From Spirochaetota bacterium (lineage in GTDB: Bacteria > Spirochaetota > UBA12135 > COTS27 > JAFLEE01): a DNA stretch of 64,000 nt. A program made the position numbers and the translations under genes. A model generated the notes under the pieces. The model saw only the letters and a program-made list of their open reading frames with translations. It ran no database searches and was not told the origin of the DNA. Below are positions 2,504-56,462 of this stretch, piece by piece (the first letter of the stretch is position 1; each line of letters begins with the position of its first letter). Location: NCBI GenBank assembly GCA_017302015.1, contig JAFLEE010000003.1:1-64000 (forward strand), written 5' to 3'.

Positions 2504-3928
2504 TCAGTCCCGGGTGACCCGGTCCAGCACGCGGCCCGACCGGTCGGCGATTTCCACATCCATGGGCATCTGTCCGTAGGCGTGGGTGGAGCAGGAGAGG
2601 CAGGGATCGTAGCAGCGAATGACCGCTTCGACCCGGTTGAGCATGCCTTCCTGGATCTTCTTCCCGTTGACGAATTTCTTGGCCACCTGGAGCACGCCCT
2701 TGTTCATCGCCAGGCTATTGTGCCCCGTGGACACGATGAGGTTGGCCCAGGTCATCCGGCCGAAGTCGTCGACCTTGTAGTGGTGGATGAGGGTGCCCCG
2801 CGGCGCCTCGGAGACGCCGACGCCCTCGTTACGGTTGACGCGGGCGCGGGCCCGCACCCGGGTATTGAGGATGGTGGGGTTGAGCAGGATCTCGTTGATC
2901 TTCTCGATGCCGTGGAGGATCTCGATGAGGCGCGCGTAGTGGTAGTGGAAGGAGGACTGCACGGGGTGCGAGAGCCGGCTGCGGTATTCGAGGAGTTCCT
3001 TATCGGCCAGGGGCGTTCCCGTGGTCTTGCAATTATTGAGGCGCGCCAGAGGGCCGACGCGGTAGATGCCCTCGGGGTAGCCCATGGGCTTGTAGTAGGG
3101 CGACTTGAGGAAGGAATGGTCTTCGACCGCCTCGGCGATGATCTCGCCGTAGCGTTTGGGGTCGTGCTTGTCGACGACGATATTCCCCTCGGCGTCGGTG
3201 ATGCGCAGGAACCCGTCATAGAAGGAGAGGGTTTCGTCCTCGTGCACCAGGCTCAGGAAGAGCGTGGGGAAATTGGCGAACGAGGCGATCTCGTCGTTGA
3301 AGCCCTCGAAGACTTTCTTGAACCAGGGCAGCGTCCGCTGGATGATATCCATCGCCTGGGGGATGGTCCGCAGGATTTCGTCGCGCTTCTCCGCCGTCAG
3401 CGGTTCGTTCACCCCGCCGCCCACCGTCCAGGCCGGATGCACCCGCTTGCCGCCGAGGATCTCGATGATATTCTGGCCGAATTTCCGCAGCAGCACCCCG
3501 TCCTTGGCCATGGCCGGGTTGGCCCCGATGAGCCCCCAGACGTTGCGTTTCGCGGGGTTGCTGTCGAGCCCCAGCACGAAATCGGGGGAGGAGAGGTGGA
3601 AGAACGAGAGCGCGTGGGATTGGACGAATTGGGCGTAGTTCATGAGCCGCCGCAGTTCGGCCCCGGTGGGGGGGATCTCGACGGCCATGAGGTCGTCGAC
3701 CGTCTTGGAGGAGGCCATGAGGTGGCTCACCGGGCAGATGCCGCAGATGCGCGCGGTGATGGCGGGCATCTCCGTCATGGGGCGGCCCTCCACGAATTTC
3801 TCGAACCCGCGGAACTGGGTGACGTGGAACTTGGCGTCGGTGACGGCGCCGGCGTCGTCGACCTGGATGCTGATCTTGGCGTGCCCCTCGATGCGGGTGA
3901 CGGGGTCGATGGTGATGGTCTGGCTCAT
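2504..3928 (-). CDS. hoxH: NAD-linked [NiFe]-hydrogenase large subunit
   Basis: The 474-residue catalytic subunit holds the Ni-Fe site where H2 is split or formed. Both nickel-binding CxxC motifs are present: [10 protein letters not shown] near residue 62 and DPCLSCSTH near the C-terminus. After the last histidine a 25-residue tail (starting AYGQMPMDV) remains, the piece removed by the maturation protease encoded next. The N-terminal [15 protein letters not shown] and the C-terminal motif are those of the group 3d (HoxH) bidirectional enzymes. It follows hoxY by 10 bases in the hoxEFUYH operon. The bases before ATG 3928 are CCTCC, not GGAGG, so initiation probably depends on coupling with hoxY. 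Confidence 0.97.
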
Positions 3929-48921: not shown

Positions 48922-50202
48922 CTAGTCGCCCAATTCGAGGTCGGTGAGGATGTTGAACATCTCGAAGGTGCGGGCGGCCTTCTCGGAAAAGTCCTTCATT
49001 TTCTGGACGACCCGATCGCAACCGATCTCCTTGAGGAGGAAGATGTCTTCGCTGAACTGGCGCTTGAACTGGTCCTGCCAGATCTTCTGGGAGGCGTCGT
49101 GGGTGAAATTGCGCCGGCGCGCCTTGTCGTCGTAGCCGTCGATGGCCGACAATTGCTTTTTCCCCGGGACGAGCCGGGGGATGTCTTCGGCCCCGACGAG
49201 GCCGAGGAGCAGGTCGGGGGTGACGTCATCGGGCTTGAGGTCTTCCTTGTCGACGAAGCAGGGGCCGATGGACCCCGAGAGATGGGCGATGTCGACCTTC
49301 TTGCTGAGGTCGAGGATCTGGTCGTAGAGGTCGAGTTCCCGCTCGTAGAAGACCGGCTTCCCGGGCTCGACGAGGAAGCCGTGGGTCTCGAGGCTCTCCC
49401 GGTGCTCGTGGTTAAGCTCGATCTTCCAGAGGCGCATGAGCGCCTCGTTCTTCACGTTGAATTTCCTGGAGAGGAGGACGAGGTTGCGGAAGTATTCCAT
49501 GTCGAGGGAGAGCCCGACATCGTGCTCCCGGCAGATCTCGGTGAGTTCCCGGGTGTAGCGGGGGAAATCGCCCTTTTCGAGGAGGCCGGGGATGAAGGAG
49601 GCCCCGCCCCCCACCGCCTCGAGGGGATAGCCCTTCTGGATGAAGGGGGCCTCCGTCTTCTTGTCGAGGAGGATGTAGTCGAGGCAAAGGTTCTTCACCA
49701 GGAGGCGGATGCCGGCGTCCCGGGCGATGGCGCTCATGGGGTGCAGGAGTTCGAAGCCCTGGCGCATGAACTGGAGGTAGGTGTGGAAATCGTAGGTGGC
49801 GCAGAAGAAGCGCTCGCGCTCCTGGGCGGCCTCCAGGGGCCGCTCCGCGAGGTCCTGGATCACCGAACTGTGGCGCGACACCCCGAAACCATAAAGGGAC
49901 CCGAAATGGTAGGAGACGGATTCCACATGGGGCGCGTGGCGGTTGAGGAGCACGTAGAAGGCGAGGTTGCGGCCGAGGGTGTACTCGTTGTCGGGGTGGA
50001 GCAAGTTCTTGTCGTGGACGCAAAAGCGGACCTCGACGTGGTTGGAAAGCCAGGCGGCGAAACTCGAGATCTCCTCCAGGCGGCAGACGCGGGGGAAGAA
50101 GATGAAGAAATTCCTGCGGCCGAGCTCGACCATGCGCTCGAGGTCGCGGGGGAAGAACCCGCCGCGGTCGTCGAAGGCGGCTACCTGGTAATACTGGCGC
50201 AT
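48922..50202 (-). CDS. Conserved-looking protein of unknown function
   Basis: 426 residues, no signal peptide or membrane segment. The chain alternates strands and helices and may be a TIM barrel (for example YHFGSLYGFGVSRHSSVI, VGLSLDMEYFRNLV and VDIAHLSGSIGP), with scattered histidines and acids that could bind metal, but I do not recognise a family. ATG 50202 lies inside the rsfS coding sequence, giving a 22-base overlap, and GTG of the methyltransferase follows two bases after the stop. Cotranscribed with lytR and rsfS. Confidence 0.7.
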   Translation of the reverse strand: MRQYYQVAAFDDRGGFFPRDLERMVELGRRNFFIFFPRVCRLEEISSFAAWLSNHVEVRFCVHDKNLLHPDNEYTLGRNLAFYVLLNRHAPHVESVSYHFGSLYGFGVSRHSSVIQDLAERPLEAAQERERFFCATYDFHTYLQFMRQGFELLHPMSAIARDAGIRLLVKNLCLDYILLDKKTEAPFIQKGYPLEAVGGGASFIPGLLEKGDFPRYTRELTEICREHDVGLSLDMEYFRNLVLLSRKFNVKNEALMRLWKIELNHEHRESLETHGFLVEPGKPVFYERELDLYDQILDLSKKVDIAHLSGSIGPCFVDKEDLKPDDVTPDLLLGLVGAEDIPRLVPGKKQLSAIDGYDDKARRRNFTHDASQKIWQDQFKRQFSEDIFLLKEIGCDRVVQKMKDFSEKAARTFEMFNILTDLELGD

Positions 50203-50525
50203 GACTTGTAGAGGGCTTCGAGGTGGTAATGGGCCCGGGACTCGGCCAGGAAGAGGTGGACGACGAAGTCGCCGTAGTCGAGCACGACCCAATGGGAAGG
50301 CTCGTCGCGGCGGCGGGCGAAACGGGGGGTCTGCCCGGCCTCGGCGAGCCGGTCGACCAGGTAGCGGGAGAGGGCGCGGATGTGCACGTCGCTGGTGGCG
50401 GTGGCTAGCACGACCCAGTCGGTGAAGATGCCCATGGGCTTCACGTCATAGGCCACCAGGTGCTCGGCCTTGCGTTCCCCCAATTCCTCGAGGGCGTTCA
50501 TCACCCATTCCTGCGTATCGGCCAT
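50181..50525 (-). CDS. rsfS: Ribosomal silencing factor RsfS
   Basis: 114 residues of the RsfS/Iojap family: DVKPMGIFTDWVVLATATSDVHIRALSRYL and SHWVVLDYGDFVVHLF are the family hallmarks. It binds ribosomal protein L14 and blocks subunit joining in poor nutrition. ATG 50525 is chosen because AGGAG lies five bases upstream; GTG 50531, overlapping the lytR stop as GTGA, is the alternative. The order lytR-rsfS is found in several bacterial groups. Confidence 0.92.
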   Translation of the reverse strand: MADTQEWVMNALEELGERKAEHLVAYDVKPMGIFTDWVVLATATSDVHIRALSRYLVDRLAEAGQTPRFARRRDEPSHWVVLDYGDFVVHLFLAESRAHYHLEALYKSCASITR

Positions 50526-52409: not shown

Positions 52410-53621
52410 ATGCCCGTGACGCTGACCGATGAACAGATCCAAACCATCGCCGAAGCGCTATCCCGCGGCTTCTGCGAAGCCCTGCAGGCGGATGAGGTCG
52501 ATCCCCCCACCTGGATTTCCCAGATCGAATCGTCGCTCCCTTTCCTCGGGGGGCAATTTGCGGCCCGTGTCAGGGAGCACTGGCTAACGCGCAATCAAGA
52601 AAAGCCGGAATCCCGCCGCCGTCCCCTCGAACAGCCCCTCGTCCTGTTGGGTGGCTACGGCGAAGGCGCCCCCGAAGAACGCGTGAGGGCACTCATCCCC
52701 GAAGAGAAGATCTTTATCAATCGGAAAGTCTTCCACGACATCCTCGATGGGGTCGATTTCACCAAACTCGATCCGGTCCAGGAAAAACGCCTTTTGGGAA
52801 CGCTCAAGACGGAGAGCATCGGCCTGAGCGACCAGGAGGCACTCCTTTATTTCACCCTCATCAAATTGAGCCGGAGCCCGATGGTCCCCGAAAAGTCCGT
52901 CTCGCCAACGCTGCCCCCAAAGGAAGCCTCCCTGGTGGTGCTCGAGCGGCTCATCAAGCAATTCGGGGACTTGGGCCGCTTGACCGCTTTCAACGAAAAC
53001 CGCGAAATACCGCTCGCCTCCTTCCAGGATCTCTTTTCCCGCAAGCTTTCAGCGCGCAAGCCCTCTGCAGCCGTCGCTTTCTTCCTCTGCGGAGCCTGGC
53101 CCCGCAATCCCCACCCCGTCCTCCTCGTGCGCTCCTTCCTTCAGCAGATGTCCGAAAAATGGGGGGCTGATACGGCAGATTGCCTCCTCCTCTACGAAGC
53201 GCTCTTCCTATTGGGAGGCCTCGATCCCGCCGTCTCCGGGGTTTCCCGGGCTTTGGCCGCTTTCTTGCGCGGGGAAAGTACCCGCCTGGTCAAGCCGGTG
53301 ATGTCCATCTCCATCCATTTTATCCATGCCTTCTCCCAGACCCTCGCCCTCCAAGTGGTCGAGATCAACCGCAAATATTCCTGCGCGCCGCCGGACCAGC
53401 AACCCAAGCTCGTGAAGCTCTACGCCGCACCGGAGCGACGATCGCTCCTCATCGCCAACGCGGCCGCAAACGGGTTCCAGGCGGTCTCCTACGCCAAATC
53501 CGAATCCCTTGAAATCACAAAAATCTGGAGGGCCTTCGCGCCCAAACTTTCCGCCTTCCTCACCCCCGAAGACCTCTTCGCCACCGATTACGGGCAAACG
53601 CCCCCGAGGGAATCCCCGTGA
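52410..53621 (+). CDS. Helical protein of unknown function
   Basis: 403 residues, cytosolic, mainly alpha-helical with no recognised motif. N-terminal LTDEQIQTIAEALSRGFCEAL reads as a short helical domain; a longer repeat-like body follows (LLLYEALFLLGGLDP). It overlaps the voltage-sensor gene by GTGA and opens a four-gene operon (voltage-sensor protein, pseudouridine synthase, HAD phosphatase). ATG 52410 lacks a Shine-Dalgarno sequence. Confidence 0.7.
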   Translation: MPVTLTDEQIQTIAEALSRGFCEALQADEVDPPTWISQIESSLPFLGGQFAARVREHWLTRNQEKPESRRRPLEQPLVLLGGYGEGAPEERVRALIPEEKIFINRKVFHDILDGVDFTKLDPVQEKRLLGTLKTESIGLSDQEALLYFTLIKLSRSPMVPEKSVSPTLPPKEASLVVLERLIKQFGDLGRLTAFNENREIPLASFQDLFSRKLSARKPSAAVAFFLCGAWPRNPHPVLLVRSFLQQMSEKWGADTADCLLLYEALFLLGGLDPAVSGVSRALAAFLRGESTRLVKPVMSISIHFIHAFSQTLALQVVEINRKYSCAPPDQQPKLVKLYAAPERRSLLIANAAANGFQAVSYAKSESLEITKIWRAFAPKLSAFLTPEDLFATDYGQTPPRESP

Positions 53622-54907
53622 CCCTGAAACCGCACCCCCTCCTGCGTCGGCCCATCGCGTGGCTCGACGCCGTCAACCCGTACATCGTCATCGCCTCCAT
53701 CATCGGGCTTCTCCTCGAGTTCACGCCGCTGAAGGGCCTCGGGCCCGTCATTCCCGGCCTCGGAAAGACGCCCTTGCCCTATTTCAACGCGGTCACGGAC
53801 GTGGTCTTCGTCATCGATTTCCTGGTGCGGTTGCTCGCCTTCCCCAAGCGCGCCTATTTCTTCCGCCACTACGGCTGGGTCGACCTCCTCGCCGCCGTCC
53901 CGGGGCTGCTTTTGGTCCTGGAGCAGGTCCCCTCGCTCCTGGCGGCCTTCAAGTTCCTGCGCATCGGCCGCTTTTTTAAGATCATCCGGTTGCTTCGGTT
54001 CCTCAAGATCTTCTCCTTCCTGCGCCGCATGCGGGAGGACAGCCCCTGGGTCCAGGACCGCATCATGAAAATCGGGGTGGTGGTGGTGCTCGTAGGCGTG
54101 GCCACCATCGGGGTGGCCGAGACCTTCGTGGAGCGCCATTACCTGCGCACCACCCGCGAGAAACTCGACATGTACGAGAAACTCACCGGCAGCTTCGCCC
54201 TCGCCGTGCAGATCCTCCCCTCCAAAACCCTGGTGGCGTGGCAGCAGGGGCAGAATTTCAGCCGTCCGACCACCTCCACCTCCACCCTCCAGGAGGAGAC
54301 GCTAAGCCCCGGCGAATACGCGCTCCTCGCGCAGCATGAAGACGCTCTCCTCGTCCGCCTCGACCCCGCCCGTTCCGCCATCCTCCATGACAAGCCGTAC
54401 CTGCAGGACCGCAATAACGTCGCGCTTACCCTCATGCTCGCCCTCATCCTCACCCTCCTCATCCTCCTCTTCTACATGGGCGCCGTCTTCGCCCGGGACA
54501 TGAGCCTCGTCGCCCTCATTTCCGATTCGATCGATGCGGGCGACTACACCCTGCTCCTCGAAGAGGGCAAGGCGCTCTTCCCCGACGGTTCCCTGGAAAC
54601 CCGCCCCGGAGAGGACGAACTCCTCTCCCTGGTGAAACGGATGAACCGCCTCGTGGCCGAAAAAAGCCTGCAGGACGATCCGGGAAACGGGGAAGGCGTC
54701 AGTGAAGCATCGCTCCACGCCGCTGGCTTCGCCGAGCTCCCGGCCAGTGCGCAGATCGAGGAAAGCCTTCGCGCCTTCAAGGAGTCGTTCCGCGAGGAAC
54801 TTTTGGCCGACCTCAGGGCCCAGGGCCGGGAGACCGCCATCGAAGCCGTGCGGATCTCGGCGCGCAGCATCGTCGACTACCTCAAAAAACACGGCTTCCA
54901 AGCGTGA
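53618..54907 (+). CDS. Voltage-sensor-domain membrane receptor without a pore
   Basis: 429 residues. Residues 20-135 are a voltage-sensor domain: S1 (20-36), S2 (56-75, Asp61 and Asp67), S3 (86-101, Asp89) and S4 with seven basic residues exactly three apart (Lys112, Arg115, Arg118, Lys121, Arg124, Arg127, Lys130). No pore helix or selectivity filter follows. Instead come a membrane helix (150-168), an extracytoplasmic domain (169-265), a helix (268-290), a HAMP-like region and a helical tail to 429 with no enzyme domain. Start GTG 53618 overlaps the upstream stop. Function unknown: perhaps a voltage-responsive signalling or structural protein. Confidence 0.8.
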   Translation: MTLKPHPLLRRPIAWLDAVNPYIVIASIIGLLLEFTPLKGLGPVIPGLGKTPLPYFNAVTDVVFVIDFLVRLLAFPKRAYFFRHYGWVDLLAAVPGLLLVLEQVPSLLAAFKFLRIGRFFKIIRLLRFLKIFSFLRRMREDSPWVQDRIMKIGVVVVLVGVATIGVAETFVERHYLRTTREKLDMYEKLTGSFALAVQILPSKTLVAWQQGQNFSRPTTSTSTLQEETLSPGEYALLAQHEDALLVRLDPARSAILHDKPYLQDRNNVALTLMLALILTLLILLFYMGAVFARDMSLVALISDSIDAGDYTLLLEEGKALFPDGSLETRPGEDELLSLVKRMNRLVAEKSLQDDPGNGEGVSEASLHAAGFAELPASAQIEESLRAFKESFREELLADLRAQGRETAIEAVRISARSIVDYLKKHGFQA

Positions 54908-55818
54908 ACGAGAAATCCCCCGGGAAAGGCGGAATCCTCCGCTTCACCGTCCGTACGCGGACCACGGTCCTGGATTTTTTGGGGGAGCGCTTCCCGGGTT
55001 CCCACCGCGGGACGCTGCGCCAACGCCTCGCCCACCACGGCGTGCGCATGGCGGGCAAACCCGTCACCAATCCCAAGACAGTCCTGGAGGCCGGGGATGA
55101 GGTCGAAATCCTCCGCCAGGCCGTGCGGTCCCAACCCCTCCCCCCGGGCATGCGCATCGTCTGGAAAGATGCCCACCTTATCCTCATCCACAAGCCCGAC
55201 GGCCTGCTTTCCATGGCCAACGAGAAGGAAAATCACCGCACCGCCTATTGGCACCTCACCGATTGGGCCCGGGAGGACGCGGGAGACCCGAAGGCGCGGA
55301 TCTTCATCGTCCATCGCCTCGACCGGGACGCTTCCGGCCTCCTCCTCTTCGCCCGCGATGAGGCCACCAAGCGGTATTTTCAGGACCATTGGGACGCCGT
55401 CGAGAAGATCTACGGCGTCGTCACCGACGGGATCCCCAGGCCCCCCGAGGGCGCGTGGAGATCCAAGTTGACCGAGGGCCCCCAGCACCGCATGAAGAGC
55501 CGCCCCGCCAAGAACTGGAGGGATCAGGGGGCGGAGGACGAGGGCAAGGACGCGGTCACCCATTACCGCACCCTCCGCACGCGCGATGGCCTGGCTTTTC
55601 TCGAAGTGCGCCTAGAGACCGGCCGCAAGAACCAGATCCGCGTCCACGCCGCTTCCTGCGATTGCCCCGTGGTCGGAGACTCGAAATACGGCCAGGACGC
55701 GCGCAATCCCTTCCACCGGCTCGGGCTCCACGCCTGGAAGCTGAAGTTCACCCATCCGGTCACGAAGCAAATCATGGGGTTCGTCGAACCCCTCCCGAGA
55801 GGATTCGAACTCCGATGA
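54904..55818 (+). CDS. RluA-family pseudouridine synthase
   Basis: 304 residues. An S4 RNA-binding domain (residues about 15-75; RLAHHGVRMAGKPV) precedes the catalytic domain with HRLDRDASGLLLF, whose Asp attacks the target uridine, and RKNQIRVHAASC near the C-terminus. It converts uridines in rRNA or tRNA; the exact target cannot be told. GTG 54904 overlaps the previous stop as GTGA, and the next gene overlaps by ATGA. Confidence 0.93.
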   Translation: MNEKSPGKGGILRFTVRTRTTVLDFLGERFPGSHRGTLRQRLAHHGVRMAGKPVTNPKTVLEAGDEVEILRQAVRSQPLPPGMRIVWKDAHLILIHKPDGLLSMANEKENHRTAYWHLTDWAREDAGDPKARIFIVHRLDRDASGLLLFARDEATKRYFQDHWDAVEKIYGVVTDGIPRPPEGAWRSKLTEGPQHRMKSRPAKNWRDQGAEDEGKDAVTHYRTLRTRDGLAFLEVRLETGRKNQIRVHAASCDCPVVGDSKYGQDARNPFHRLGLHAWKLKFTHPVTKQIMGFVEPLPRGFELR

Positions 55819-56462
55819 AGCCCTATAGCGCCTACCTCTTCGATCTCGACGGGACCCTCCTCGATTCCACGGACCTCATCGTCGAGACCTTCCGCCATTC
55901 GCTCAAGGCCGTCGCCAACCTCGAGGTCGATGCCGAACTCGTGCGCCGCCATATCGGGATCCCGCTGAAGGACCAGTACCCCATCTACCTCCAGGGCCGC
56001 CCCATGGCGCTCCCGATGGAGGAGACGCTCCAGCTCCATATGGATTACCAACTCACCATCTGGCGCGATTACTTGAAACTCTTTCCCGAGGTGGGGGAAA
56101 CCCTCGCCGCCCTGAAGGCGAAGGGGGCCAAGCTCGCCGTGGTGACTTCCCGCCGGATCGCCTCGGCGGAACTCTATACCCGCGGCGTCGGCATTTGGCC
56201 CTATTTCGATTTTTTCATCACCCCCGAATCCACCCCGAAGCATAAGCCCGACCCCGGCCCGGCGTTGGAGGCCCTGCGCCGCCTCGGCGTACCCGCTGAG
56301 AGAGCGCTCTTCATCGGGGACGCGACCTTCGACATGCAGTGCGGCGCCGGGGCCGGTTGCGACACCTGCTACGTCTCCTGGGGACACGTGCCGCCCCATG
56401 AGGTGACGCCGAAGCCGACCTGGGTGCTGAGCCGGTTTTCCGAACTCCTCGTCTCGCCCTAA
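55815..56462 (+). CDS. HAD-superfamily phosphatase (phosphoglycolate/pyrophosphatase-like)
   Basis: 215 residues. HAD motifs: FDLDGTLLDST (I, nucleophile Asp), VVTSRR (II), KPDPGPALEALRRL (III) and FIGDATFDMQCGAGAG (IV). The helical cap domain lies between motifs I and II, as in Gph and PpaX. It removes phosphate from a small molecule such as phosphoglycolate or pyrophosphate. Last gene of the operon starting at 52410; convergent with the LiaF-like gene, with an 87-base gap that shows no strong hairpin. Confidence 0.9.
   Translation: MKPYSAYLFDLDGTLLDSTDLIVETFRHSLKAVANLEVDAELVRRHIGIPLKDQYPIYLQGRPMALPMEETLQLHMDYQLTIWRDYLKLFPEVGETLAALKAKGAKLAVVTSRRIASAELYTRGVGIWPYFDFFITPESTPKHKPDPGPALEALRRLGVPAERALFIGDATFDMQCGAGAGCDTCYVSWGHVPPHEVTPKPTWVLSRFSELLVSP

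Follow-up and report, generated by a model that had tools for sequence, protein, structure and literature searches.

The 64-kb window (the whole stretch of DNA analyzed here) encodes a 429-aa receptor on its forward strand, the gene of which starts with GTG at position 53618 and ends with its stop codon at 54907. It overlaps both neighbors by 4 bp, i.e., GTGA at 53618 with the upstream gene and GTGA at 54904 with the downstream gene. Because of these overlaps, and with the gene of a HAD-family hydrolase following at 55815, the genes for c1B, the receptor, an RNA pseudouridylate synthase, and the HAD hydrolase look like a single operon. The RNA pseudouridylate synthase gene is a probable operon member whose function is probably unrelated to that of the receptor, and the HAD-hydrolase gene is a further probable member. 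The features, all on the plus strand, are the following:

52410 to 53621 (+): partner gene c1B, 403 aa, without a Pfam or PDB match; 4-bp overlap with the receptor start
53618 to 54907 (+): voltage-sensor/HAMP-type receptor gene, type B of its family, 429 aa (ORF, Pfam, AlphaFold model, HMM)
53636 to 53722 (+): S1, residues 7 to 35, containing E34 (AlphaFold model; E or D in 65/67 members)
53771 to 53839 (+): S2, residues 52 to 74, containing D61 and D67 (model and alignment)
53873 to 53923 (+): S3, residues 86 to 102, GWVD motif with the invariant D89 (model and alignment)
53930 to 54031 (+): S4, residues 105 to 138 (about), seven basic residues at every third position from 112 to 130 (model and alignment)
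54044 to 54127 (+): TM5, residues 143 to 170, start of the receptor body (model helix 143 to 198; TM limits approximate)
54128 to 54412 (+): extracytoplasmic part, about 95 residues (171 to 265), poorly conserved and missing in some relatives (model, conservation)
54413 to 54493 (+): TM6, residues 266 to 292, approximate (model helix 259 to 306)
54494 to 54673 (+): HAMP-like cytoplasmic segment, residues 293 to 352 (homology to HAMP receptors via the family profile)
54674 to 54904 (+): helical C-terminal tail, residues 353 to 429, without a known domain (model, Pfam)
54904 to 55818 (+): RNA pseudouridylate synthase gene (PF00849); 4-bp overlap with the receptor stop
55815 to 56462 (+): HAD-family hydrolase gene (PF13419)

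The receptor protein matched no entry of NCBIfam, and comparison with plasmid sequences gave no match. Elsewhere in the window, a 456-aa ORF at 48922 to 50292 on the minus strand is without a Pfam match.

The N-terminal part of the receptor has the hallmarks of a voltage-sensor domain (VSD). Pfam Ion_trans (PF00520) covers residues 24 to 134 only (E value of 1.2e-11) and is matched by 66/67 family members, and the sequence matches in the PDB fall on S1 to S4 of Kv2.1, the Kv1.2 chimera, Kv4.2, and Cav3. The earlier note on this DNA had claimed a canonical voltage sensor with seven basic S4 residues exactly three apart and acidic partners in S2 and S3, and this description holds. The basic residues K112, R115, R118, K121, R124, R127, and K130 are spaced by exactly three positions; all seven positions are basic in 65 of the 67 aligned members, and R124 and R127 are invariant. 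Among 200,000 random permutations of the protein's own residues, 16 contained a run of at least seven, which together with the conservation rules out a chance run. The acidic partners are E34 in S1, D61 and D67 in S2, and D89 in S3; residue 67 is E in 66/67 members and D in the window protein, and D61, F64, Y80, G86, W87, D89, and P95 are invariant across the 67 sequences.

The AlphaFold model of the receptor, built with 67 sequences, is of moderate quality (mean pLDDT of 73, pTM of 0.64) and places the four helices of the sensor at residues 7 to 35, 52 to 74, 86 to 102, and about 105 to 138. Foldseek returned weak E values for this model, with nearly all of the top matches being voltage-sensor proteins. 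Structural alignment gave Z scores of 8.5 for Kv4.2 (126 residues), 8.4 for the isolated VSD of Ci-VSP (4g7v; 127 residues, model positions 1 to 134), and 8.2 for CatSper (127 residues), and the S4 arginines align with the VSD fold. A Z score of about 8 is middling alone, but in combination with the Pfam match and the charge pattern it makes a convincing case for a voltage-sensor fold. Judged by modeled fold and sequence, S1 to S4 of the receptor is a canonical VSD with a predicted movement in response to voltage.

Behind S4, the model continues with a long helix (143 to 198), two short strands (234 to 247), a second long helix (259 to 306), and further helices at 333 to 353 and 376 to 401. 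An extracytoplasmic domain of about 95 residues and a second helix, both described in the earlier note, are found there as residues 171 to 265 and TM6, and its helical tail without an enzyme agrees with the Pfam scan of residues 293 to 429, in which no domain, and hence no cytoplasmic output domain, was recognized. The scan after S4 revealed no PTEN-like phosphatase domain either. The note had also proposed a HAMP-like stretch, and this part stands through homology with relatives but not through Pfam: the HAMP model has no match in the window protein, whose segment is too divergent, and matches weakly in 3/67 members and in L072 (E value of 0.072). Positions 153 to 363 of the family profile align to residues 11 to 264 of L213 (E value of 7e-15), a two-TM sensor with a Pfam HAMP domain at 193 to 245 followed by a SpoIIE domain; HisKA, adenylate cyclase, and MCP receptors with a Pfam HAMP domain show weaker matches in the TM/HAMP region. 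Because of these profile alignments, the body from TM5 to the HAMP-like segment is, at the level of sequence, homologous to that of ordinary two-TM/HAMP receptors.

The same body could be taken for the conduction domain of a voltage-gated ion channel, be it ordinary or unusual, with a pore built from TM5, the loop, and TM6 and a filter that went unrecognized. The Pfam name Ion_trans for S1 to S4, the channel-like order of S1 to S4, helix, loop, and helix, some Slo1/Nav alignments that reach over TM5 and TM6, and the occurrence of true K+ channels in the same phylum would fit this explanation. However, the search for a pore helix in the model, residues 150 to 290 included, was negative, as the earlier note had anticipated for pore helix and filter. 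Conservation amounts to 0.56 in S1, 0.63 in S2, 0.78 in S3, and 0.69 in S4, and to 0.47 in TM5, 0.37 in the extracytoplasmic part, 0.54 in TM6, and 0.60 in the HAMP-like segment. The loop is thus the least conserved piece of the membrane portion, which argues against a pore loop, since the latter is expected among the most conserved parts. In two relatives of about 298 aa, L012 and L014, the link between TM5 and TM6 consists of a few residues and is too short to hold a pore loop. With the model, the conservation, and the loopless relatives ruling out a hidden filter, and with a body homologous to HAMP receptors, a channel is a very improbable explanation.

Beyond the single protein considered in the earlier note, the layout defines a spirochete family that spans the phylum and has its own partner gene upstream. 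Relatives with the whole layout are present in the first 100 related genomes and in many of the phylum's 393 genomes; at a threshold of 1e-6, 111 of the 393 had some profile match, a count that includes some true channels and HAMP proteins. The named records with relatives in a separate scan belong to Spirochaetota and comprise Spirochaetales MAGs, Exilispira, Candidatus Marispirochaeta, an Olavius symbiont, Leptospiraceae MAGs, and Brevinematales (genes of relatives were called mechanically as ORFs). An HMM from which the window protein had been left out gave it 56.7 bits over S2 through the HAMP-like part. In the tree, the window protein belongs to a divergent eight-member type-B clade (SH-aLRT of 100) together with L087, L088, L089, L090, L171, L172, and L174, and its C-terminal tail end is similar to those of L087 and L090. 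Outside this clade are 101 rows of type A and two rows, L072 and L190, of a third kind. An isolated odd fusion or an assembly artifact can be ruled out, given the phylum-wide recurrence of the layout and the co-occurrence of c1B with the type-B clade.

L072 (576 aa) has the same VSD and receptor body, followed in cis by an HD-GYP-type domain (HD_5, E value of 7e-25; motifs HDLGK and HHEKIDGSGYP). Its gene (L072:3589-5316, minus strand) is predicted to encode a possible voltage-controlled c-di-GMP phosphodiesterase. L190, which comes from the same class as the window and the gene of which is cut by a contig end, may be another HD-GYP fusion.

The partner gene distinguishes the two main types. 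In 72 of 98 distinct loci, which are dominated by type A, include a few type-B loci, and stem from two overlapping searches whose locus sets were deduplicated for this adjacency count only, a gene of about 310 aa termed c1 is located directly upstream of the receptor on the same strand; the median gap is 3 bp, and 63 loci are within 30 bp. Over the 393 genomes, 60 have both the type-A receptor and c1, 17 the receptor only, 43 c1 only, and 273 neither (Fisher P value of 2e-27, with shared ancestry ignored and the type-A membership list taken by hand from the search tables). Those c1-only genomes that were opened belong mostly to Borrelia and Brachyspira, and in these two groups a degenerate receptor is adjacent to c1. 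G179 was assigned to Borrelia by a plasmid match, and G077 to Brachyspira because it contains the plasmid of B. hyodysenteriae ATCC 27164. The type-B receptors of the window, L088, L089, L171, L172, and L174 are preceded by c1B instead. This gene occurs in 10/393 genomes, which are spread over several families of the phylum, namely, in each of the 8 that have a type-B receptor (two of which carry it at a different locus) and in 2 others, i.e., G220, with an adjacent type-B receptor whose VSD is degenerate, and G003, in which the contig ends inside c1B. A profile comparison of c1 and c1B resulted in a probability of 0.4%, and their union in one family is unsupported. A conserved protein of about 1,000 aa without a Pfam match is encoded divergently next to the c1-receptor pair in 63 loci (cluster c2; L062:6474-10001 and equivalents). 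In L068, the receptor gene shares one base with a gene (L068:2342-3871, minus strand) whose membrane-protein product matches GGDEF weakly (E value of 0.0026).

This co-inherited partner also bears on a second explanation, an Hv1-like voltage-gated proton channel that conducts through the VSD and uses the receptor body for dimerization or regulation. Hv1 shares the plan of a VSD lacking a pore domain, and the conserved acidic residue in S1 is present, but the conserved HAMP-like body and the partner gene would be left unexplained. A proton channel thus appears distinctly improbable, if somewhat less so than a channel with a pore of its own.

The sequences of c1 and c1B gave nothing meaningful against Pfam and the PDB. 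The AlphaFold model of c1 is confident (pLDDT of 94, pTM of 0.91), and a Foldseek search with it returned no significant match. In a structural alignment with candidates (VIA-align), the first six rows were HD-GYP/HD domains with Z scores of 7.5 to 9.1 and an rmsd of 4.4 to 5.5 angstrom, scores that helical folds can reach by chance; they include DvhD (9.1), PA4781 (9.0), Bd1817 (8.6), 4mcw (8.2), and PgpH (7.5), with more HD-type folds thereafter. The match covers about residues 84 to 311. Among 61 c1 proteins, F14, E33, R128, and S280 are invariant, and no conserved His-Asp pair or metal-binding HD residues were found. A sequence comparison of c1 with the HD-GYP domain of L072 gave no match. 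It is moderately supported by the modeled fold that c1 is a degenerate HD-fold signaling protein without catalytic residues. The HD-GYP domain of L072 fits this reading of c1, as it would provide the same kind of output on one chain.

In several lineages, the gene pair is retained and the voltage sensor is not. In Borrelia and Brachyspira, the gene after c1 encodes a receptor that follows the family plan and whose VSD is degenerate or cannot be aligned, e.g., in the Borrelia-like L178, L207, and L210 and in L191 and L206 of Brachyspira, where the pair is kept and the VSD charges are lost; the same applies to a paralogue in G162 and to G220. In a genome of family f20 (L231:4213-6614), the receptor behind c1B is of type B, and it has a degenerate VSD and a tail that is long and acidic. 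The sequences suggest that host-associated spirochetes underwent an evolutionary loss of voltage sensing and retained the receptor. Since the pair is kept with a degenerate VSD, its core function in those lineages needs no voltage sensing. These cases would accord with the explanation that the VSD has by now become chiefly an anchor or scaffold in the membrane and that the extracytoplasmic domain of a ligand receptor is the true input. For an anchor, however, the conservation is the opposite of what is expected, with seven S4 charges and the S2 and S3 countercharges nearly invariant among the 67 members and the extracytoplasmic part conserved least; moreover, several members have no extracytoplasmic part. 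This explanation is improbable, although it fares better than a proton channel.

Overall, the architecture, the receptor body, and the co-inheritance of the partner, as computed here, favor a membrane-potential receptor in which a movement of S4 acts through TM5, TM6, and the HAMP-like segment to switch a soluble partner dedicated to it, an explanation to which we assign a probability of roughly 0.6. From these features we infer the voltage dependence of the receptor and its output. Depolarization or hyperpolarization would move the S4 charges of the four-helix sensor at the input end, and since S4 is joined to TM5, the latter would take up the movement and hand it on to the extracytoplasmic domain, to TM6, and to the HAMP-like segment. 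This segment would then switch the protein encoded immediately upstream, i.e., c1B in the window and c1 in most other spirochetes; co-occurrence and gene order are computed results, and the two proteins would be in direct contact. The output is assigned to the upstream-encoded protein because there is no enzyme on the receptor chain. A ligand bound to the extracytoplasmic domain may bias the same switch, and the receptor is probably dimeric, as HAMP proteins are. A weak point of this explanation is that c1 and c1B have no detectable homology, and their sequences do not indicate a single common output.

The downstream target would likely be motility or cyclic-dinucleotide signaling, for which the gene neighborhoods provide mixed and weak hints. 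A cyclic-nucleotide-gated K+ channel gene directly follows the type-A receptor in L158, L162, L164, and, by sequence, L081. On the motility side, a c1 homologue lies inside the fliO-fliP-fliR operon of L198, and the c1B-receptor pair adjoins fliG in L172. In L198 (positions 2624 to 3532) and L199, the c1 homologue directly follows fliO, fliP, and fliR, and no receptor was detected. The Borrelia pair, which we take to be BB0674/BB0675, adjoins CheW-CheR and CheX genes; a literature search for these locus tags returned nothing relevant. Many type-A pairs have a ComFB gene nearby, and both c-di-AMP and c-di-GMP are ligands of ComFB (PMC12313861).

A narrower form of the membrane-potential receptor would act directly on the flagellar motor or the chemotaxis machinery and coordinate the two cell ends electrically. 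The fli and che neighborhoods fit this form, as does clade f49, which largely accounts for the absence of FliG from 44/393 genomes and whose listed genomes all lack both the receptor and c1. It would also be consistent with an inhibition of chemotaxis in Spirochaeta aurantia by voltage clamp, as reported in a title in the reference list of PMC4841586. Nevertheless, motility genes are missing from the surroundings of most loci, the joint absence in the single clade f49 represents one evolutionary event at most, and many flagellated genomes of family f20 are without the system. A direct action on the motor is therefore doubtful, yet it is less easily set aside than an anchor.

Whatever its immediate target, a membrane-potential receptor could be of interest for signaling over the length of the spirochete cell. 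According to the titles of two papers by Goulbourne and Greenberg (1981 and 1983), which are cited in PMC4841586, membrane potential takes part in the chemosensing of S. aurantia, and voltage clamp inhibits it. Signal transduction between the two cell ends was listed as unresolved in a 2020 review, with the diffusion of CheY-P calculated to be too slow (PMC7225975). It is conceivable, although we consider the odds to be somewhat below even, that a VSD driving a HAMP-type switch that controls HD-like soluble partners constitutes an electrical pathway across the long cell, faster than CheY-P diffusion, and maybe the missing sensor of the voltage-clamp-sensitive chemotaxis of S. aurantia. In view of those titles, the receptor family is a candidate voltage sensor for spirochete chemotaxis and provides named genes for probing the question of cell-end signaling. 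If true, these bacteria may sense the voltage across their own membrane and use it as a signal. The family also provides a natural chimera of VSD and receptor for protein engineering.

The coupling of a VSD to a nonchannel effector is already known in eukaryotes, and HAMP receptors are known everywhere, but their union appears to be new: a limited search of the open-access literature retrieved no description of a bacterial receptor with VSD input, of a VSD-HAMP union, or of c1 and c1B, in line with the earlier note, to whose author no family with exactly this order was known. Voltage-sensing proteins other than channels are known from eukaryotes, i.e., VSP, Hv1, and SLC9C1. Ci-VSP resembles the receptor in having a poreless VSD on a nonchannel effector, and the two VSD folds match (4g7v; Z score of 8.4, 127 residues), but its PTEN-like phosphatase resides on the same chain, whereas the receptor has a two-TM/HAMP body and its presumed effector is a separate protein. 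With Hv1, the receptor shares a VSD without a channel pore domain; Hv1 proton channels end in a coiled coil and are without a TM5/TM6/HAMP body. The voltage-gated K+, Na+, and Ca2+ channels (PF00520) are similar in sequence and fold of S1 to S4, but the receptor lacks their pore helix, filter, and S5-S6 conduction domain. HD-GYP and HDOD proteins are comparable to c1 with respect to the HD-superfamily folds matched by about residues 103 to 311 of its model and to the HD-GYP domain fused in the L072 relative, yet c1 is without the conserved HD catalytic motif or a sequence match. The two-TM HAMP receptors, e.g., chemoreceptors, sensor kinases, and SpoIIE-type phosphatases, are homologous in sequence over TM5, the extracytoplasmic part, TM6, and the HAMP-like segment. 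In contrast to them, the family described here has no MCP, kinase, cyclase, or phosphatase domain after the HAMP-like part, with the HD-GYP domain of L072 as the exception, and it carries an extra VSD before the first TM helix.
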